Source: a virus
IMG/VR virus record: IMGVR_UViG_3300032246_000169
Span: 1 to 40,360 of that record
Direction: 5' to 3' (one strand)
DNA length: 40,360 nt
The notes under the pieces are model-generated. The model was not told the DNA's origin and did not search any database. It saw nothing but the letters and a program-made list of their open reading frames with translations. Position 1 is the first letter of the stretch; every line of letters begins with the position of its first letter. The translations under genes were made by a program, and so were the position numbers. This document shows, one piece after another, positions 13,500 to 20,212 of this stretch.

Positions 13500-13713
13500 A
13501 ATATGGAGAAATATGCCAGGAGAATCCCCGAGCCCGAGCCTGGTCTGCCTAAAATCTCGTGATCCTTTTCAAATTGGGCTAGTGGATCACTGGAATTCCC
13601 AAATCCTGCCCAAATCACGCTCAAAAAAAATACGGGAAATAAGGTGGATACTCTCGTATTAGGTCTAGTTTTCTGGCATACTGAAGGCAGTGAATCGGAG
13701 TCGGTTCGCTAGG

Positions 13714-13730
13714 TGTATGAATTTCATACA
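13714..13730. promoter_or_regulatory. Palindromic site 1, TGTATGAATTTCATACA
   Basis: This is a perfect palindrome around one central base, extended by a G/C pair to 19 bp (13713-13731). It ends 22 bases before the ATG of the first rightward gene (13753) and just before its AAAGGAG ribosome site. It is one of nine copies with core GTATGAAWTTCATAC. The dyad symmetry fits a dimeric DNA-binding protein. Confidence 0.85.
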
Positions 13731-13752
13731 CTTCCCAATTAAAGGAGTAAGA

Positions 13753-14415
13753 ATGACAACTGCAACTAAAAAAGTAATACCAGCAAAACAAGCAAAAATT
13801 AAAGTGGCAAAAATTGAAAGTGCGCCAGCAGTAATTGAGGCAGACCAAGATATATGCGACTTATATGCTGGACTTATCAACCAGCAAGGCGAGATGGAAT
13901 TTATTTTGGAAATGTCATCCCGACTCGCCACTGGTTCCACCAGTGTTCGCATAATTCAAGCGTCAATAGAATTGGCGTCATCTATGGGAAACGCTCCAAC
14001 AATTAAGAAGGGGCACGCTCAATATATCGCAACCGCAAGTAAGATAATCGAAACGCAACAAGGCGCAGATACTTGGCCAGTGGCGAAATTGTTAAAACTT
14101 GCGACCCGATTACAACGCCATGCAGGGGTCGAGAATATCGAAACCGCGCTGGAAGTTACTGAATCGGTTGATGAACTAGATGAATTAGTGCCAGTAATCA
14201 ACACCAACAAGCGCGGCACTAAGGGTCCTAAGCAGGGCGAATCAGTGCCAGTGGCAAAATTGCGCAGTGTTGATGAAGTTCTGGCAGTAACTTTTGCAGG
14301 GCTCCAATCACTAACCAAGAATCCCCGCGACCTAAAAGCAACCGACCTAAAAACCCTGAAAGCAGTGAGCGAATTGTTAAAAGTTATCGCGGACAATTCA
14401 ACACCTAAGAAGTAA
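13753..14415 (+). CDS. Unknown protein, 220 aa, first gene of rightward block
   Basis: I do not recognise this gene. The start is ATG 13753 with AAAGGAG six bases upstream; an in-frame upstream ATG at 13717 lies inside the palindromic site and has no ribosome site. The protein has a Lys/Ala-rich basic amino terminus (residues 1-25), an acidic patch (EADQDICDLY), a helical middle, an acidic segment (VTESVDELDELVPV) and a basic carboxy terminus. A strong terminator follows 15 bases after the stop, so it forms its own transcription unit under palindromic site 1. Being first in the block and autonomously terminated, it is a candidate regulator or DNA-binding protein. That is inference. Confidence 0.75.
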   Translation: MTTATKKVIPAKQAKIKVAKIESAPAVIEADQDICDLYAGLINQQGEMEFILEMSSRLATGSTSVRIIQASIELASSMGNAPTIKKGHAQYIATASKIIETQQGADTWPVAKLLKLATRLQRHAGVENIETALEVTESVDELDELVPVINTNKRGTKGPKQGESVPVAKLRSVDEVLAVTFAGLQSLTKNPRDLKATDLKTLKAVSELLKVIADNSTPKK

Positions 14416-14430
14416 AGAATCAAAAGATAG

Positions 14431-14462
14431 CCTCGACCCTCACGGGTCGGGGTTATTTTTTT
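14431..14462 (+). terminator. Rho-independent terminator
   Basis: CCTCGACCC and GGGTCGGGG form a 9-bp stem (one G-U pair) around a TCAC loop, followed by TTATTTTTTT. It lies directly behind the 220-residue gene on the plus strand. Confidence 0.93.
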
Positions 14463-14500
14463 GCCCTAAAATTCTGACGATGATCCCCGCAACCCTGCCC

Positions 14501-14517
14501 CGTATGAAATTCATACG
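14501..14517. promoter_or_regulatory. Palindromic site 2, CGTATGAAATTCATACG
   Basis: This 17-bp perfect palindrome with a C/G outer pair lies 39 bp behind the terminator and 258 bp before the next clear gene. An ATG inside it opens a 32-codon frame (14504-14602) with no ribosome site, which I do not call. It is the one intergenic copy without an obvious downstream start. Confidence 0.8.
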
Positions 14518-14534
14518 CGCCGAGGTCGCGAAAG

Positions 14535-14598
14535 TTTGTGTTGGAACTCCTTTACTACGCGATTGGGCTGGCAGAAAATTTGTGTTGGTTTGTGTTGG
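14535..14598. repeat. TTTGTGTTGG repeats in 359-bp gene-free stretch
   Basis: TTTGTGTTGGA is at 14535-14545, and two tandem TTTGTGTTGG copies are at 14579-14588 and 14589-14598. ACTCCTTYACTACG follows both the first and the last copy at different distances, so a longer unit has been duplicated with small changes. A fourth TTTGTGTTGGA is at 19510-19520, directly behind the terminator that closes the rightward block. The remainder of 14416-14774 holds a terminator, palindromic sites 2 and 3 and a promoter candidate. No gene is seen. Confidence 0.7.
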
Positions 14599-14669
14599 AT
14601 AGGGCACTCCTTCACTACGAAATTGCGATTTGGAGTCTTAAAATAATACGGCTAAAAGGCTGACTTGGC

Positions 14670-14698
14670 TTGCATTAGATATGGCACTAGGCTATTAT
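14670..14698 (+). promoter_or_regulatory. Candidate sigma-70 promoter
   Basis: TTGCAT (14670-14675) and TATTAT (14693-14698) are separated by 17 bases, the ideal spacing. A start of transcription near 14705 would put palindromic site 3 about 30 bases downstream, where a bound protein could block elongation or initiation. Each box has one or two departures from consensus. Confidence 0.5.
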
Positions 14699-14735
14699 TG
14701 GGTTATCGGTTGAGCACTGCTCATATCCGACAAGG

Positions 14736-14752
14736 TGTATGAAATTCATACA
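14736..14752. promoter_or_regulatory. Palindromic site 3, TGTATGAAATTCATACA
   Basis: This perfect palindrome extends to 19 bp with an outer G/C pair. It ends 22 bases before ATG 14775, the same spacing as site 1, with GAAAGG as ribosome site in between. It lies just downstream of a promoter candidate. Confidence 0.85.
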
Positions 14753-14774
14753 CTTACAAGCGAAAGGTTAAGTT

Positions 14775-14939
14775 ATGACTAACGCACAACTTCTCGCCCG
14801 ACTAGAAGCAATTAACCAAGAATATAAAGAAGCAACCCACTTGGAAATTCTTGCCAATATCGAGGCAGACAGCAAGCGCAAAGAAGCCATCCGTAAGGCT
14901 GGCGTAGAAGCAATCGAGAGAGCGAGGACATTCGCGTGA
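14775..14939 (+). CDS. Small helical protein, 54 aa
   Basis: The gene is short but well supported: ATG 14775 has GAAAGG eight bases upstream, and its stop overlaps the next start as GTGA. The protein (MTNAQLLARLEAINQEY...) is Ala/Glu/Lys-rich and probably a single long helix or coiled coil. No family is recognised. It is the first of three tightly coupled small genes under palindromic site 3. Confidence 0.7.
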   Translation: MTNAQLLARLEAINQEYKEATHLEILANIEADSKRKEAIRKAGVEAIERARTFA

Positions 14940-15082
14940 ACCACTTAGACCGATTAAATAAAGTGTTGTATCAGCAAGCGAAAGGCTTACTTACTGAGGA
15001 TGAGATGTGGCAAGAAGTTTTAGAAATTGCCCATAACTTCCTTATCGGCGATTATCAAGTGAACGAAGGGATAGCACGATGA
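14936..15082 (+). CDS. Small unknown protein, 48 aa
   Basis: It starts at GTG 14936, overlapping the upstream stop (GTGA), and ends overlapping the next start (ATGA). The sequence begins VNHLDRLNKVLYQQAKGLLT and continues with an acidic/aromatic helix. It is unrecognised. The paired overlaps indicate translational coupling within a three-gene cluster and are the main evidence that the gene is real. Confidence 0.6.
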   Translation: MNHLDRLNKVLYQQAKGLLTEDEMWQEVLEIAHNFLIGDYQVNEGIAR

Positions 15083-15249
15083 ACACTGATGATGAACTAA
15101 TGGCTATTGCTCACGATATATTCACTGATGAAGAAATCCTAGCGATTCTCGATGAAGAAGATTATTTAGGCGTAGATATATCCTTAGACGACCTATATGA
15201 TGAATTAGATGAAGAGGACAGCGACGAGGACTCAGATTGGGCTGAGTAG
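15079..15249 (+). CDS. Extremely acidic small protein, 56 aa
   Basis: The protein starts at ATG 15079, overlapping the previous stop. About 25 of its 56 residues are Asp or Glu and there is no Lys or Arg, so the net charge is roughly -25. The carboxy end is almost purely acidic (DELDEEDSDEDSDWAE). Such proteins in phages sometimes mimic DNA and inhibit restriction enzymes, nucleases or nucleoid proteins (known examples are Ocr and Arn). I cannot tell which, if any, applies. It is the third gene of the small cluster. Confidence 0.65.
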   Translation: MNTDDELMAIAHDIFTDEEILAILDEEDYLGVDISLDDLYDELDEEDSDEDSDWAE

Positions 15250-15260
15250 TTCCGCTGGTA

Positions 15261-15306
15261 GCCTACGCTGGTGCGTGGTTCGCAGGTTCGATTCCTGTGG
15301 TGGGCA
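15261..15306 (+). other. tRNA-like T-arm and acceptor segment (degenerate tRNA or attachment-site remnant)
   Basis: GCAGG-TTCGATT-CCTGT (15282-15298) is a textbook T-arm with the conserved TTCGA loop. It is followed by GGTGGGC and an A in the discriminator position. GCCTAC at 15261-15266 can pair with GTGGGC to give an acceptor-like stem. The space between is too short for D and anticodon arms, and no 7-base anticodon loop can be drawn, so this is not a working tRNA. It could be a decayed tRNA, or a tRNA 3' end of the kind used as phage attachment sites, although no integrase was found. Confidence 0.45.
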
Positions 15307-15309
15307 CTG

Positions 15310-15326
15310 TGTATGAAATTCATACA
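15310..15326. promoter_or_regulatory. Palindromic site 4, TGTATGAAATTCATACA
   Basis: This perfect palindrome extends by an outer G/C pair and by TG/CA-rich flanks. It ends 23 bases before ATG 15350, again with the ribosome site (AAGGAG) in between. It starts four bases after the tRNA-like segment. Confidence 0.85.
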
Positions 15327-15349
15327 CTGTTTGATAGTAAGGAGATAAA

Positions 15350-15418
15350 ATGAATCTACTTATACTGCTACTAATTACTGGCTCTTTCGTAGCGTTGATA
15401 ATCGGTGGCAAGATATGA
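15350..15418 (+). CDS. Possible 22-aa membrane peptide
   Basis: The frame from ATG 15350 has an excellent AAGGAG site and overlaps the next gene by four bases (ATGA). The product, MNLLILLLITGSFVALIIGG plus two residues, is almost entirely hydrophobic and would form one membrane segment. Very small holin-like or regulatory peptides look like this. The coupling and spacing behind palindromic site 4 support a real gene, but its size leaves doubt; it may also act as a leader peptide. Confidence 0.55.
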   Translation: MNLLILLLITGSFVALIIGGKI

Positions 15419-15585
15419 CGATGATCGAGTTAAGTGATAGGCAGGTGGTAGTATTACGCCAAGCCTTGCGCCTTCAAGAAGAGGCGCATAATCGCAACGG
15501 ATTTCGCACGCTGGAATCTGAAGCCTCTGAACTACGCTCTTATATTGCTGACTTGGTAATTGACAATGCTAGGGCGGTAGTGTAA
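15415..15585 (+). CDS. Small unknown protein, 56 aa
   Basis: It starts at ATG 15415 inside the previous stop (a second ATG at 15421 is possible). The product begins MTMIELSDRQVVVLRQALRL and is predicted to be helical, with mixed charge. No family is recognised. It is translationally coupled to the 22-residue membrane peptide. A promoter lies across its 3' end (15560-15588). Confidence 0.6.
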   Translation: MTMIELSDRQVVVLRQALRLQEEAHNRNGFRTLESEASELRSYIADLVIDNARAVV

Positions 15586-15588
15586 TAT
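15560..15588 (+). promoter_or_regulatory. Strong sigma-70 promoter candidate ahead of the amidoligase
   Basis: TTGACA (15560-15565) and TAATAT (15583-15588) are separated by exactly 17 bases. Transcription would start near 15595, about 20 bases before palindromic site 5. The promoter overlaps the end of the preceding gene, as is common in compact phage genomes. It would drive the amidoligase, the glutamine amidotransferase and downstream genes. Confidence 0.65.
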
Positions 15589-15614
15589 GGTTCCTGTAAT
15601 CAAGCACCAACAAC

Positions 15615-15631
15615 TGTATGAAATTCATACA
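15615..15631. promoter_or_regulatory. Palindromic site 5, TGTATGAAATTCATACA
   Basis: The symmetry extends to 21 bp here (15613-15633, ACTG... to ...CAGT), the longest of the nine. It ends 22 bases before the amidoligase ATG at 15654, with GAAGGG between, and lies at about +20 relative to the promoter candidate at 15560-15588. Confidence 0.87.
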
Positions 15632-15653
15632 GTATCTAGTGAAGGGATACAAT

Positions 15654-16859
15654 ATGGAAAATGAAGAAGTTCTTGTATGCGTATCTTGCAACAAGGATGT
15701 AAGTGATGAACACGAAGCAACTACCAGCGATGACATAGTTTGCCACGAATGTGTGCGAGTCTGTGAGCGTTGCGACTATATCGGCACTGTCGATGATGAC
15801 TTCAGAGTTGTAGACAGCAACCAAATGTGGTGTGAACCTTGCGCTGATAATTACTCCAACTGGTGTGATAACTGCGAGATATACCATACCTCGGATGTCT
15901 ACTATGCTGAAGATAGAAGTGGAACTTACTGTGAAGGTTGCTGGATGGATTACCTCACATATTGCGAAGGTTGCAGTAATTATTACTATGACCCTTGCAG
16001 TTGTATGGATGACGAGGATGAACGATTTATCCACGATTACTCATACACTCCCGACCTGAAGTTTCACACTGTAAAAGAAAATCCCACTGTCCCTGCTGAT
16101 TTCTTATACTTAGGTATGGAGATCGAATTAGAAGCACCGCGTAATGACTACGGCATTAGAACTGATGCTGCCGAATATGCCTCCAACCTAGAGGACTACG
16201 GACTTGCATACCTCAAATCTGACGGCTCACTTGAATGTGGGTTCGAGGTGGTAACTCATCCAATGACCCACGATTACTTCAAGAATCACGCCCCTAAGTT
16301 TTGGGAAGTGATAGGTGGGCTGCGCGATGAATTTCGTATGCGGGCTTGGTCTGCTGGAACTGCTGGCATACACATCCACCTATCTAGGGCTGGTTTCAAT
16401 AATGGTGCTCATATCCACCGATTCTTGCAACTTGTCTATGCTAATGAGGAATTTTATTCTCGTATGGCTGGTCGTAATTCAGGTCGCTGGGCTAAGTTCG
16501 ATGATGTTCTGCAATGGGATTCTGATAAGGATCGATCTGTCAAATCATTCAAGCGTAAGTTAGCGCGATATGGTAATAACCATTCTGACCGCTACTCTGC
16601 TGTGAATACTCTCAATCGCAATACCCTAGAGATGAGAATCTTTAGGAGCACACTCAATCCTGACACTATCAAGTCTGCGTTAGATTTAGCACACGCCAGT
16701 GTTGAATACACACGCACTCTCACAGTAGGTCAGATAGTAAATGGTGCGCTAGAGCGTATGAATTTCATACAGTTCATTCACGATAACAAGGACACCTACG
16801 CGCACTTAATATCCCGTATGGACAGATTGTTCATCGGTGCTCATTCAGATACAGAATAG
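15654..16859 (+). CDS. Amidoligase (COOH-NH2 ligase family) with N-terminal Cys-rich zinc domain
   Basis: This is a predicted ATP-dependent ligase forming amide bonds. Residues 150-360 carry the amidoligase pattern: GMEIELE (154-160), KSDGSLE with EVVTHP (188-203), a His pair in AGIHIHLS (237-244) and LNRNTLEMRIFR (320-331). Residues 1-120 form a separate module with seven CxxC pairs (9/12, 30/33, 37/40, 60/63, 71/74, 93/96, 104/107) plus CSC at 115-117, resembling tandem treble-clef or LIM-like zinc fingers. I chose ATG 15654 (GAAGGG upstream); an upstream in-frame ATG lies in palindromic site 5. A class II glutamine amidotransferase follows after 10 bases, so ammonia from glutamine is the likely amine or part of the pathway. 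The substrate is unknown; a peptide or cell-wall component is possible. Palindromic site 6 lies inside the gene. Confidence 0.82.
   Translation: MENEEVLVCVSCNKDVSDEHEATTSDDIVCHECVRVCERCDYIGTVDDDFRVVDSNQMWCEPCADNYSNWCDNCEIYHTSDVYYAEDRSGTYCEGCWMDYLTYCEGCSNYYYDPCSCMDDEDERFIHDYSYTPDLKFHTVKENPTVPADFLYLGMEIELEAPRNDYGIRTDAAEYASNLEDYGLAYLKSDGSLECGFEVVTHPMTHDYFKNHAPKFWEVIGGLRDEFRMRAWSAGTAGIHIHLSRAGFNNGAHIHRFLQLVYANEEFYSRMAGRNSGRWAKFDDVLQWDSDKDRSVKSFKRKLARYGNNHSDRYSAVNTLNRNTLEMRIFRSTLNPDTIKSALDLAHASVEYTRTLTVGQIVNGALERMNFIQFIHDNKDTYAHLISRMDRLFIGAHSDTE
16756..16770. promoter_or_regulatory. Palindromic site 6, GTATGAATTTCATAC, inside the amidoligase gene
   Basis: This 15-bp perfect core lies within coding sequence, where it spells part of RMNFIQ near residues 368-373. 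It is about 100 bp before the amidotransferase start. It is the only copy fully inside a confident gene, so the DNA signal may have been kept at the cost of codon choice, or it may regulate the downstream gene. Confidence 0.8.
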
Positions 16860-16869
16860 GAGATATACT

Positions 16870-17724
16870 ATGTGTTTACTCGCAGTATGTGAACCAGGCT
16901 CTACGCCCAAGCGCAAGGACTTGGAATGTGCCTCTTGTAATAACCCGCACGGATTTGGATATGCAGTAATCGCCAATGGTGAGATTATCACTGGTCGCGG
17001 TATGTCTGCTAAGAAAGTTATATCTGAATTCCTAGCAATTCGTAAGAAGTATCCGCAATCCTACGCTATGTTTCACGCTAGGTTTGCTACGCACGGCGTT
17101 AAGAATGAAGAGAACTGCCACCCATTCGCGGTGGGAGGGTCGACACAAACCTATCTCGCGCATAATGGGATACTCGATGTGGAAATTCACGCAACGGATA
17201 GACGCAGTGATACGCGTGTATTCGCCGAGGATGTCCTACCTGCTATGGGTGGCGTGTCTTCCCTAGATAATGACAATGTGTGGCGTATTCTTAGCAAGTG
17301 GGCTATGGGTAGCAAGATAGCGGTGCTAACTCTCGATCAAAATGCTAAGGCTAACTGTTACATTATCAACGAGGCTTCAGGCCACTGGGATACTGCTGGT
17401 ATATGGTGGAGTAATACGACCTACAAGGAAGATAGTTGGTCTAAGTATTATAGTCTGCCAAGTGCCGACCCTTCAGTATCCATATTAGATACCGAAACGG
17501 AATGTCCAGGGTGCGGAGCCTTCCTCTTAGAGGATGGTAATCCGTATTACTGTGAGTTCTGTATGGTATGCTATGATTGCTTCGGCACTTATCAAGATGA
17601 CTGCCTATGCTATCTACCCGAAAGAGATGAACACGCTTATGCTTTGAGGTCTGCTAGTGGTCAGAACGATACTTGGTTTGACTTTGATAATAAGCACACC
17701 GAATACCACAACTACTACAAGTAA
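16870..17724 (+). CDS. Class II glutamine amidotransferase with C-terminal zinc module
   Basis: This 284-residue Ntn hydrolase releases ammonia from glutamine. I chose ATG 16870 because class II enzymes need Cys as residue 2 (MCLLAV); an in-frame ATG at 16837 would bury it. Family landmarks are HGFGY (27-31), FHARFATHG (68-76, with the conserved Arg), NCHPF (82-86), LAHNGI (96-101) and SDTRVFAE (113-120). The carboxy terminus adds Cys pairs at 212/215, 228/231, 234/237 and 245/247, a zinc-ribbon-like module not needed for catalysis. The neighbouring amidoligase also has a Cys-rich module, so the two may form a complex that channels ammonia. The start lies 10 bases behind the amidoligase stop with AGGAG upstream. 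Confidence 0.87.
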   Translation: MCLLAVCEPGSTPKRKDLECASCNNPHGFGYAVIANGEIITGRGMSAKKVISEFLAIRKKYPQSYAMFHARFATHGVKNEENCHPFAVGGSTQTYLAHNGILDVEIHATDRRSDTRVFAEDVLPAMGGVSSLDNDNVWRILSKWAMGSKIAVLTLDQNAKANCYIINEASGHWDTAGIWWSNTTYKEDSWSKYYSLPSADPSVSILDTETECPGCGAFLLEDGNPYYCEFCMVCYDCFGTYQDDCLCYLPERDEHAYALRSASGQNDTWFDFDNKHTEYHNYYK

Positions 17725-17733
17725 GGAGCAAGG

Positions 17734-17750
17734 TGTATGAATTTCATACA
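17734..17750. promoter_or_regulatory. Palindromic site 7, TGTATGAATTTCATACA, containing a start codon
   Basis: This is a perfect palindrome in the short gap behind the amidotransferase. AAGGAG lies upstream and the ATG at 17737 inside the site is the best start for the next gene. Protein binding here could affect transcription, and the site also sets the first four residues of the protein. Confidence 0.85.
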
Positions 17751-18012
17751 GCAAGATGAAGTAAAGATAAAAGATATCACAAGCAAGTATGATGTTGACC
17801 TGCGCATTGTAGAGTATACTGGCTGGGTTAAAATCATTAACTTCGTTGATAAAGAAAAGCGACACTATAAAGGTCGATTAAGGTGGAGTATGTATGATGG
17901 CTATGTTATGGAATGGGACGGGGTTCCACCTGTTGACCTATTAGATTTGGCTACACGTCCCGAGTTCGAGTATATAATCGATTGTATTACGGAAGGAGAT
18001 ACAAGTGAGTGA
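17737..18012 (+). CDS. Unknown protein, 91 aa
   Basis: It starts at ATG 17737 within palindromic site 7; AAGGAG eight bases upstream supports this start. The amino terminus MNFIQQ is therefore dictated by the palindrome. The rest has a beta-rich look (VDLRIVEYTGWVKIINFVD) and an acidic carboxy terminus. No family is recognised. The stop overlaps the next GTG-started small gene. Confidence 0.7.
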   Translation: MNFIQQDEVKIKDITSKYDVDLRIVEYTGWVKIINFVDKEKRHYKGRLRWSMYDGYVMEWDGVPPVDLLDLATRPEFEYIIDCITEGDTSE

Positions 18013-18118
18013 TGAAGAAGAGTGTCCTATGTGCGATGGAGTTCACGAGGATGGCGAATGTGGGTTTGATTACCCTGATCCCGACATTCTATACGATGAG
18101 ATGAACTCTGCCTATTGA
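18005..18118 (+). CDS. Tiny Cys-rich acidic protein, 37 aa
   Basis: It starts at GTG 18005 with GGAGAT upstream and overlaps the previous stop by eight bases. The product has CPMCDG, a His and a further Cys (residues 7-19) followed by an acidic tail, compatible with one small zinc site. The function is unknown. Support comes from ribosome site, spacing and composition. Confidence 0.5.
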   Translation: MSDEEECPMCDGVHEDGECGFDYPDPDILYDEMNSAY

Positions 18119-18191
18119 GATTCATTAAACTATCGGTGGGTCTGTTCTGCCTAGGTATACTAGGTGGGGCTAGCCCACCATCTATGTTAAT

Positions 18192-18197
18192 TATAAT
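18192..18197 (+). promoter_or_regulatory. Possible -10 box upstream of whiB
   Basis: A perfect TATAAT lies 31 bases before the whiB start in AT-rich DNA. No good -35 box is found at the right distance. A GGTGGG/CCCACC hairpin (18163-18179) lies just upstream and could end the preceding transcript. Confidence 0.4.
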
Positions 18198-18227
18198 ACT
18201 ACTAATATATTTATGGGGGGTGTTAAT

Positions 18228-18557
18228 ATGATAGAAGGTGCTTGTAGAGGACACGATAATCCTGACCTATGGTTTCCTGAGATAGGTCGTGGGACTTTCG
18301 GTATGAAAGAAAAGTTACAGCAGTTGGCAAAAGAATGTAACGTTGCTATGGCTATATGTAAATCTTGCCCTGTAAAAACTGAATGCCTTGAAGAAGGTAT
18401 GAAGTTTGAGAATAGAAGTTATGGTATATGGGGTGGGCTTATGGCTGGTGAACGATTGATCGAAGCAGGTGAGCAACCTGATTCTCATCATAGGTCAACC
18501 CCCCAAGGGGATGCCCTTAATATGTTATACAAGTTGCAACCTTATCTAAGGAGGTAG
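18228..18557 (+). CDS. whiB: WhiB-family iron-sulphur regulator
   Basis: This is a 109-residue actinobacterial-type transcription factor. Four Cys ligands at residues 6, 44, 47 and 53 (C-x37-C-x2-C-x5-C) would hold a [4Fe-4S] cluster, and the family turn GIWGG is at 66-70. WhiB proteins bind region 4 of the principal sigma factor and adjust promoter choice; phage copies are known to alter host gene expression and superinfection. The start ATG 18228 is preceded by GGGGGGTG; an upstream ATG at 18213 would place that site inside the gene. Its stop is followed by the transglycosylase, whose ribosome site lies in the last whiB codons. This gene is the best host indicator in the window. Confidence 0.92.
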   Translation: MIEGACRGHDNPDLWFPEIGRGTFGMKEKLQQLAKECNVAMAICKSCPVKTECLEEGMKFENRSYGIWGGLMAGERLIEAGEQPDSHHRSTPQGDALNMLYKLQPYLRR

Positions 18558-18558
18558 T

Positions 18559-18573
18559 GTATGAAATTCATAC
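18559..18573. promoter_or_regulatory. Palindromic site 8, GTATGAAATTCATAC, containing a start codon
   Basis: The 15-bp core is perfect, and flanking T/G breaks the outer symmetry. AAGGAGG seven bases before the internal ATG (18561) makes that ATG the transglycosylase start. The site lies two bases behind the whiB stop. Confidence 0.83.
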
Positions 18574-18950
18574 GCCCTGTAATGCTTATGCTAGTAATTC
18601 TATTCATCATCGTAGGAGTTAACAAGGTTGGTGAATCTAGGATTGAAAAAACAAGAGTATGGACAGTTGAAGATAGCAAGGCTTATGCTCGAGATAAGAT
18701 ACAAGTGTATGCAGATGAACAATGGGCCTGTCTAAATAAACTATGGGGAGCGGAATCACACTGGAGAAAGGACGCATACAATGAAGTAAAAGTAATGGGC
18801 AAGAATGCTGGTGGCATACCACAGATACTAGATATGTCGCCTAAACTTAAGCCAACCTATCAGATAGATAGAGGGCTGGCCTATATAGAATACAGATATC
18901 TCACGCCTTGTCGGGCTTGGGCACACCACGTAAGGAAGGGGTGGTATTAA
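18561..18950 (+). CDS. Membrane-anchored lytic transglycosylase-like protein
   Basis: This 129-residue protein has one membrane segment (about residues 7-20) followed by a lysozyme-like domain. QWACLNKLWGAESHW (54-68) holds the catalytic Glu65, GGIPQI (84-89) matches the family Gln motif, and GLAYIEYRYLTPCRAWAHH (105-123) is the characteristic end. Cys57 and Cys117 could form a disulphide. This compact form is common in actinobacterial secreted transglycosylases. It would cut peptidoglycan glycan strands from the outer face of the membrane. It lies away from the CHAP endolysin, in the rightward block with whiB and the amidoligase pair, suggesting controlled wall remodelling or an auxiliary lysis role rather than main lysis. 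Confidence 0.82.
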   Translation: MKFIRPVMLMLVILFIIVGVNKVGESRIEKTRVWTVEDSKAYARDKIQVYADEQWACLNKLWGAESHWRKDAYNEVKVMGKNAGGIPQILDMSPKLKPTYQIDRGLAYIEYRYLTPCRAWAHHVRKGWY

Positions 18951-19187
18951 ATGAAGAATGTATTTAGGGTCGGTGGTATTGAAGCCGACAAATTAAAACT
19001 TACCGCTATGGATTTACGCGGTGAGTCAATCAAGGTATGTATATGCGGTTCAGAAGTATGGAACCTACAAGTTAAATGGGATGATGATGACACCATAGGA
19101 ATGTATTTTATGAATATGTGGTGTCCATTATGTGATAGCGTAGCAACAGCACCAACAGTAGAATATGATGATAATGCTGACATATGA
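18951..19187 (+). CDS. Zinc-ribbon-like small protein, 78 aa
   Basis: It starts at ATG 18951 directly behind the previous stop, with AAGGGGTGG upstream. CICG (residues 30-33) and CPLC (58-61) form a probable four-Cys zinc ribbon around a beta-rich core (EVWNLQVKW). It overlaps the next small zinc-ribbon gene. Its role is unknown; such proteins often bind nucleic acid or RNA polymerase. Confidence 0.65.
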   Translation: MKNVFRVGGIEADKLKLTAMDLRGESIKVCICGSEVWNLQVKWDDDDTIGMYFMNMWCPLCDSVATAPTVEYDDNADI

Positions 19188-19350
19188 ATATAAATGCCCT
19201 AAATGTGGCAACTCAGAAGAGCACCAACGCGATATGGATGATAGAGACCAACTACCTACTTGTCAGGCCTGTGATGTGCTGATGAATAGAGTATGGCAAG
19301 CAACACCTACACACTTCAAAGGTGGTGGGTTTTATTCAACTGGAGGATAA
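19174..19350 (+). CDS. FmdB-type zinc ribbon protein
   Basis: The opening MLTYEYKCPKCGNSEEHQRD, with a later CQAC, matches the FmdB/CxxC zinc-ribbon family, whose members start near M-x-TYEYxC. I therefore favour ATG 19174 over 19165 or 19168. The end (FKGGGFYSTGG) is also typical of this family. Proposed regulatory roles for the family are not proven. The start lies inside the upstream gene, and the stop overlaps the next ATG as TAATG. Confidence 0.75.
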   Translation: MLTYEYKCPKCGNSEEHQRDMDDRDQLPTCQACDVLMNRVWQATPTHFKGGGFYSTGG

Positions 19351-19454
19351 TGGAAGAGTCAATTGAAGATCAAGAACTGCGATCAAAACTAATGGCTGAA
19401 ATAAATGAATCGCTAGATATAATCAGTAAGAACTTGGAAGAACTAAAAGAATAA
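19350..19454 (+). CDS. Tiny helical acidic protein, 34 aa
   Basis: It starts at ATG 19350 overlapping the FmdB-like stop, with GGAGG four bases upstream. The product (MEESIEDQELRSKLMAEINE...) is a single predicted helix rich in Glu and Leu. The function is unknown. It is the last gene of the rightward block; palindromic site 9 and a strong terminator follow at once. Confidence 0.55.
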   Translation: MEESIEDQELRSKLMAEINESLDIISKNLEELKE

Positions 19455-19455
19455 G

Positions 19456-19472
19456 TGTATGAAATTCATACA
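19456..19472. promoter_or_regulatory. Palindromic site 9, TGTATGAAATTCATACA, beside the block terminator
   Basis: This perfect palindrome lies between the last rightward stop (19454) and the terminator (19474). No gene follows it in the rightward direction, so it cannot serve as a start-associated site here. It may mark the edge of the controlled region or act on read-through. Confidence 0.85.
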
Positions 19473-19522: not shown

Positions 19523-20212
19523 TTATTCTAGTTCGATGATAGTAACTTCATCAGTTACTTCTTCTTGGTTAATTGTATCTTCATCTCGGTAAGGCTTGTA
19601 TCCACCTATATGATTAAGCAACCTACGAATGGCTCGGTTACAACGCATTCTAGCGGCATCTTCACTAGGTATATCCAACTCCTTGGCTATCTCAGCAAAA
19701 GGCATAGCCTCAGCATATTTGAGAAATAGGATACGTCTATCTTCTTTGTTTAACTTCCAGTAACCATAATCAATTTCGATCATAATGACTGTAATATTAC
19801 CTCCTTCAGCAGGCGCAGAAGGGCGTGATGGGCCACCCAAATTGAGTTGATGAGTTACACCAATCTCTCCGCGCAATACTGAAGGCAAAATTGCTTCAAC
19901 TAATTCAACATCATAATAGTAGTTATCTGATACCTCATAACCTATTGACTTAGCCTTCCATCTTTGACAGTAATCTAAGGCTTGGTTGCGAAGTGAGCGA
20001 TATATAAGGTTTTTAGCATCCTTCATACCGATTGCTTCCCAAGTATCTAACTTATTAGGATGTTCAGCAAACCATTGGTATAAGGATTGCTTGATATCAT
20101 CAAGTTCCACCATATCATACTTCTTATGATATTCGGAGGCTACGCCAACGACTACATAATCCCAAGGTTCTATGCGATTCCAGTCAATCATTTCCTTTAC
20201 TACCACTTCCAA
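19523..20212 (-). CDS. Sigma-factor-like transcription regulator
   Basis: The 229-residue protein has a sigma region 4-type helix-turn-helix near residues 153-205 (LNKEDRRILFLKYAEAMPFA, then EIAKELDIPSEDAARMRCNR). The amino-terminal half (DDIKQSLYQWFAEHP...SLRNQALDYCQRWK) resembles a sigma region 2 core. It probably steers host RNA polymerase, perhaps to the late operon. I use TTG 20212 because AAGGA lies five bases before it; ATG 20191 is the alternative but its ribosome site is too close. It is the last gene of the DNA-metabolism operon and overlaps the metallophosphoesterase end. Confidence 0.75.
   Translation of the reverse strand: MEVVVKEMIDWNRIEPWDYVVVGVASEYHKKYDMVELDDIKQSLYQWFAEHPNKLDTWEAIGMKDAKNLIYRSLRNQALDYCQRWKAKSIGYEVSDNYYYDVELVEAILPSVLRGEIGVTHQLNLGGPSRPSAPAEGGNITVIMIEIDYGYWKLNKEDRRILFLKYAEAMPFAEIAKELDIPSEDAARMRCNRAIRRLLNHIGGYKPYRDEDTINQEEVTDEVTIIELE

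Follow-up and report, generated by a model that had tools for sequence, protein, structure and literature searches.

Phage pairs of amidoligase and amidotransferase

The pairing of an amidoligase with a glutamine amidotransferase in phages is already known from Marvin, LUZ24-like and OM43 phages. phiEco32, LUZ24-like phages and related podoviruses carry a 'peptidoglycan modification cassette' of amidoligase, GATase, ATP-grasp and gamma-glutamyl cyclotransferase genes, whose role at the wall is itself a proposal. Modification of the wall has been put forward for related phage cassettes (PMC5498523, PMC10580990). As far as we checked the literature, it holds no experimental test of these wall proposals, no assayed enzyme of the family and no experimentally established substrate.

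Here we analyzed a stretch of viral DNA of 40,360 nucleotides (IMG/VR record IMGVR_UViG_3300032246_000169; hereafter the window). An initial annotation made from the sequence alone had placed adjacent genes for an amidoligase and a class II amidotransferase at 15654-17724, each with a Cys-rich zinc module. Both open reading frames are present on the + strand and contain every motif named for them. The principal features are the following:

15654..16859, + strand: putative ATP-dependent amide ligase of the Amidoligase_2 family (glutamine-synthetase fold), 401 aa (Pfam, motifs, alignment, fold)
15678..16004, + strand: LIM-like Cys-rich module of the ligase, residues 9-117 (alignment, weak LIM profile matches, model)
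16870..17724, + strand: predicted class II (N-terminal Cys2) glutamine amidotransferase/glutaminase, 284 aa (motifs, alignment, fold)
17503..17610, + strand: Cys-rich module ending the amidotransferase, residues 212-247 (alignment, module comparison, model)

With the peptidoglycan modification cassette the window has the amidoligase and the amidotransferase in common; it differs by its Cys modules, and neither an ATP-grasp nor a gamma-glutamyl cyclotransferase partner was found among the window proteins scanned. The OM43 phages MEP401 and MEP402 encode an adjacent amidoligase (PF12224) and GATase (PF13522) of the same families and in the same order as in the window, but the amidotransferase of MEP402 lacks a Cys module and its ligase has only two CxxC pairs. 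In the Marvin-group mycobacteriophages, gp105 and gp106 ('glutamine amidotransferase domain proteins') are likewise adjacent and in the same order (ligase 31% and amidotransferase 36% identical to those of the window), and they also carry Cys modules, in front of the ligase and behind the amidotransferase. The Marvin ligase differs in its shorter module and long C-terminal extension, and the genome around the Marvin pair is organized differently.

The ligase

The ligase starts at the ATG at 15654. A longer start at 15618 was discarded because it sits within a palindrome and relatives begin at 15654. The Amidoligase_2 enzyme forms the second part of the protein, behind the Cys module, and contains the motifs GMEIELE, HIH and LEMRIFR. 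Its match to Pfam Amidoligase_2 (PF12224; E=2.6e-7, 31.2 bits) lies above the curated cut-off of 22, and the same profile was matched at E<=0.01 by 82/82 relative ligases. These relatives were drawn from viral contigs and yielded aligned, non-redundant sets of 82 ligases and 66 amidotransferases. Residues invariant among the ligases include G154, E156, E158, D190, E198, H240, H242, R245, N318, E326 and R328; we take E156, E158, E198, H240, E326 and R328 to bind metal or the ATP phosphates by established glutamine-synthetase chemistry. The conserved ExE, E, HxH and ExR pattern of metal/ATP residues is present in the ligase as in the 82 aligned sequences. Loss of catalytic residues in close homologues, named beforehand as evidence against the pair, was thus not observed: they are invariant in all 82 ligases and all 66 amidotransferases.

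Structures were predicted for each protein singly. The ligase model (mean pLDDT 90) matched GmaS (gamma-glutamylmethylamide synthetase) in the PDB with a Foldseek E of 4e-5, followed by YbdK and glutamine synthetase; these E values are modest and the TM-scores low (0.28-0.39 among the top matches). Other phage amidoligases were strong structural matches, down to E 3e-35. As modelled, the ligase has a glutamine-synthetase fold.

The model also matched the fold of PafA and Dop, the actinobacterial Pup ligase and depupylase. This match, together with the fact that LIM-like modules commonly bind proteins, would suit a pair that modifies a host or phage protein by amidating, or ligating onto, carboxylates of its side chains or C-terminus, the LIM-like module recognizing the protein. 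We think such a role unlikely: PafA and Dop matched less well than did YbdK, GmaS and glutamine synthetase, and apart from a 56-aa open reading frame upstream we identified no candidate protein partner that is conserved together with the pair.

The amidotransferase

The amidotransferase starts at the ATG at 16870, and the AGGAG ribosome-binding site preceding it overlaps the ligase stop. A longer start was discarded since relatives begin at Met-Cys, a start (M1 C2) that is invariant in 66/66 aligned sequences. The motifs Cys2, NCHPF and LAHNG are all present. Among the residues invariant in the 66 sequences are C2, R71, N99, G100 and D114, which presumably correspond to those by which GlmS binds glutamine; their glutamine-binding and oxyanion roles are mapped from general knowledge. 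The protein falls under the Pfam cut-offs for GATase_6 (E=5e-5, 23.8 against 27) and GATase_4 (E=4e-4, 19.8 against 23), and because of these scores it is not filed under either family; fold and residues nevertheless agree with class II. At E<=0.01, 64/66 relatives match GATase_6 and 66/66 match GATase_4, with a best E of 5.8e-7.

In the structure model (pLDDT 78), residues 191-208 and the tail beyond 250 are poorly predicted. The model matched the GlmS glutaminase domain (PDB 1xff) with E=2.4e-8 over 206 aligned columns (TM 0.47/0.55), and PurF and EgtC were further matches. The modelled amidotransferase has an Ntn glutaminase fold, which it shares with GlmS together with the glutamine-binding residues; in GlmS the glutaminase is fused to an isomerase, whereas here it is a separate protein paired with a ligase of glutamine-synthetase fold.

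EgtC hydrolyses gamma-glutamyl amides rather than feeding a synthetase. Its appearance among the fold matches, and the Cys2 start that it has in common with the window protein, raise the alternative that the amidotransferase is an EgtC-like amidohydrolase trimming a gamma-glutamyl (or other amino-acid) amide made by the ligase, the pair making or salvaging a small molecule. Cassettes in two other phages lend this some support: in a Stenotrophomonas cassette, genes for a gamma-glutamyl cyclotransferase and a D-Ala-D-Ala-ligase-like protein lie close to those for the amidoligase and the amidotransferase, and a Rhizobium cassette has an ATP-grasp gene close to its own pair. Against it, GlmS is a better fold match than EgtC, sequence-profile searches agree with the fold in matching GlmS and PurF, and the window proteins scanned include, as noted above, neither cyclotransferase nor ATP-grasp. 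We therefore regard this alternative as rather improbable.

Measured against one relative (L007), dN/dS was ~0.13, about an eighth, for the ligase and likewise for the amidotransferase, and by this sequence measure both evolve under purifying selection. A scan of genome contigs for a cellular origin gave only distant amidotransferase fragments (Ruminococcus, Treponema and others).

The Cys-rich modules

The ligase module comprises seven CxxC pairs and one CxC (C9xxC12, C30xxC33, C37xxC40, C60xxC63, C71xxC74, C93xxC96, C104xxC107 and C115xC117), the amidotransferase module three CxxC and one CxC (C212xxC215, C228xxC231, C234xxC237 and C245xC247). The seven CxxC and the four Cys pairs described in the initial annotation are therefore real, and since they are conserved across 82 ligases and 66 amidotransferases they are not a chance pattern: at 14 positions of the ligase module the Cys is invariant or conserved to 90% or more, and 8/8 cysteines of the amidotransferase module are invariant. 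The ligase module is modelled mostly at pLDDT >90. Its spacing, CxxC-x17-CxxC-x3-CxxC-x19-CxxC, is close to that of LIM; profile matches to LIM structures in the PDB were weak (E 0.2-0.8), and one BFVD structure match of the ligase is annotated 'LIM domain containing protein'. Judged from their sequences, the modules probably bind zinc in a structural role, and they probably hold a partner or substrate.

Cys-rich zinc modules can also bind nucleic acid, in which case the pair might amidate an acid linked to nucleic acid, for example an aminoacyl-tRNA or modified base. We consider this highly improbable, as no base-modification enzyme was recognized among the window proteins scanned and neither protein resembled tRNA amidotransferases in profile or fold searches.

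The likeness between the amidotransferase module and the final portion of the ligase module goes beyond cysteine spacing. Their hhalign score was 27.6 (probability 70%), whereas 150 Cys-fixed shuffles averaged 13.6 and reached at most 23.9, and the two modules are likely related in sequence. The amidotransferase module was detected only in the lineage of the window, in the Marvin group and, partly, on the fragment L097. Except on L097, which has no ligase, it was found only where the paired ligase carries a module too. The ligase module, by contrast, also occurs in the distant ligases of L003 and L005, whose amidotransferase has none, and partially in L002. Co-occurrence of both modules in other phages, proposed as a check in the initial annotation, is thus seen in the Marvin group and not in L003 and L005. 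Likewise, the proposal that matching modules imply pairing is borne out by their likeness and by the restriction of the amidotransferase module to phages with a module-bearing ligase; it is weakened by distant phages in which the ligase module accompanies a module-free amidotransferase, which show that docking to its counterpart does not by itself account for this module. Perhaps the two enzymes dock through their Cys modules. We know of no other amidotransferase that docks through zinc modules of this kind.

Linkage of the two genes

Both genes were present in 160 of 165 tallied loci, the window's own included; the 160 loci represent 113 distinct sequences, since some contigs were retrieved by both queries. 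In 158/160 loci the amidotransferase lies directly downstream of the ligase, with a gap of -32 to +78; in L095 the gap is 514. Four of the 5/165 loci without both genes are cut at a contig end, and the fifth is L097, a 7.9-kb record with a divergent amidotransferase and no ligase. L096 (181-1008 and 1061-2203) has a Marvin-like pair in reversed gene order with adjacency kept, and its ligase Cys module is expanded.

Because these loci had been retrieved with the two proteins themselves, a second test was anchored on a gene unrelated to them, that of the sigma factor (19523-20212). Of the 68 anchored loci with enough room, 36 had both genes, 32 had neither and 0 had a single one. Independent occurrence of the two genes across related phages, the other observation named as speaking against the pair, was accordingly not seen, yet on the sigma-factor tree the both-present and both-absent states form two clades one change apart. 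The pair was therefore gained or lost jointly once, and the 36/32/0 distribution does not represent many independent events. The distances of the two proteins are correlated (r=0.91, or 0.87 when the Marvin group is excluded; the highest permuted value was 0.27); we dismissed this co-divergence as proof of contact, since linked genes share their history.

Distant phages support the association independently: both genes stand side by side, or within one cassette, in the Marvin group, OM43 phages, a Manatee Spring podovirus, gut phage fragments, and phages of Stenotrophomonas and Rhizobium. The Clostridioides phage AR1086-1 has a ligase without a recognizable amidotransferase beside it, and in Bifidobacterium phages the partner is equivocal. 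On balance, the comparison of sequences supports ligase and amidotransferase as a functional unit.

Operon and neighbouring genes

The pair lies in a rightward operon whose features, with the convergent sigma factor, are:

13690-14415, + strand: first gene of the operon, matching no known family (noted for its distribution with palindrome arrays)
15415..15585, + strand: small conserved open reading frame, 56 aa, directly upstream of the ligase (44/53 non-redundant loci)
15615..15631, no strand: palindrome TGTATGAAATTCATACA shortly upstream of the ligase ATG, by its sequence a probable operator for the operon
16755..16771, no strand: palindrome from the array search, lying in the ligase gene's 3' end and ~100 bases ahead of the amidotransferase
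18213-18557: WhiB-like regulator in the same operon as the pair, kept in cultured Planktophila phages
18561-18950, + strand: transglycosylase-like protein whose N-terminus is hydrophobic, a conserved gene following the pair (49/53 loci)
19523-20212: sigma factor, convergent, kept in cultured Planktophila phages

The 17-base palindrome occurs in nine copies within 13714-19472 (at 13714, 14501, 14736, 15310, 15615, 16755, 17734, 18558 and 19456), counted with up to two mismatches; 0.24 chance matches are expected in the whole window. The copies are confined to the operon holding the pair; most are located where a gene begins, and some overlap its start codon. In related phages the corresponding positions also carry arrays, with a lineage-specific palindrome (for example TGTCCGATAATCGGACA in L019, TGTATTAAATTAATACA in L122 and TGTCGGGTTAGCCCGACA in L083).

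The family of the 13690-14415 gene was found in 27/27 array-bearing loci with enough upstream sequence. In the sigma-anchored set it was present in 8/9 loci counted as array-bearing (one of them, L282, has just two strict copies) and in 0/36 array-less loci. Its presence with arrays and absence from those 36 loci make its product the best candidate, on sequence grounds, for a palindrome-binding protein; as counter-evidence, 10 loci of the other set have the family without a strict array, and clades confound the comparison.

The 56-aa open reading frame was considered as a RiPP-like precursor and rejected, the look of a core peptide being absent by eye. A PADLOC search for membership of a defence system gave nothing of note. 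A family of ~141 aa (KDSNWDLDLRAG...GESKVADLL...VEVKTDRRW; for example L013 8199-8642, + strand) is strongly conserved in 44/53 related loci, with no member recognized in the window; by eye it looks nuclease-like.

Host and cultured relatives

The terminase of the window shares 80% identity with that of LanE43-AprE7 and F5, two phages in culture whose host is 'Ca. Planktophila' (order Nanopelagicales; PMC10202952). By this comparison the window would derive from a freshwater actinobacterial phage with a host in the order Nanopelagicales. The genomes of LanE43-AprE7 and F5 retain the WhiB, transglycosylase-like, zinc-ribbon and sigma genes, while both enzymes and the genes upstream of them are absent; the pair is thus dispensable in relatives.

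Proposed function

We propose, with a probability of about one half, that the pair is a two-subunit, glutamine-dependent, ATP-driven amide synthetase. Removal of Met would expose Cys2 of the Ntn-fold amidotransferase, which would split glutamine and release ammonia. The ammonia would pass to the ligase, which would use ATP to activate a carboxyl as acyl phosphate and join the ammonia to it, giving an amide. Counted against this proposal are EgtC among the structural matches of the amidotransferase, the lone ligase of AR1086-1 and the lone amidotransferase of L097, the Planktophila phages without both genes, and an all-or-none pattern that amounts to one change.

For the substrate, our leading guess, a tentative one, is a cytoplasmic precursor of the cell wall; the transglycosylase-like neighbour in 49/53 loci and the published proposals for phage amidoligase cassettes favour it. 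Through the modified precursor, the wall of an infected cell would come to differ from those of its neighbours. A more specific scenario, decidedly unlikely as a whole, has the two enzymes joined by homologous LIM-like zinc modules, that of the amidotransferase derived from the ligase lineage; the resulting glutamine-dependent amide synthetase would act during infection to remodel the wall in one of the most abundant groups of freshwater bacteria. As far as the literature was checked, four features are apparently undescribed, though not with certainty: that both partners carry Cys modules, that these modules resemble each other, that their distributions are nested, and that the pair is present or absent lineage-wide.

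Amidoligase-amidotransferase pairs are recurrent in phages, and similar Cys modules on both partners offer a testable docking hypothesis. The all-or-none pair and the cultured pair-less relatives on cultivable 'Ca. Planktophila' provide a natural with/without comparison in which its product may be sought.
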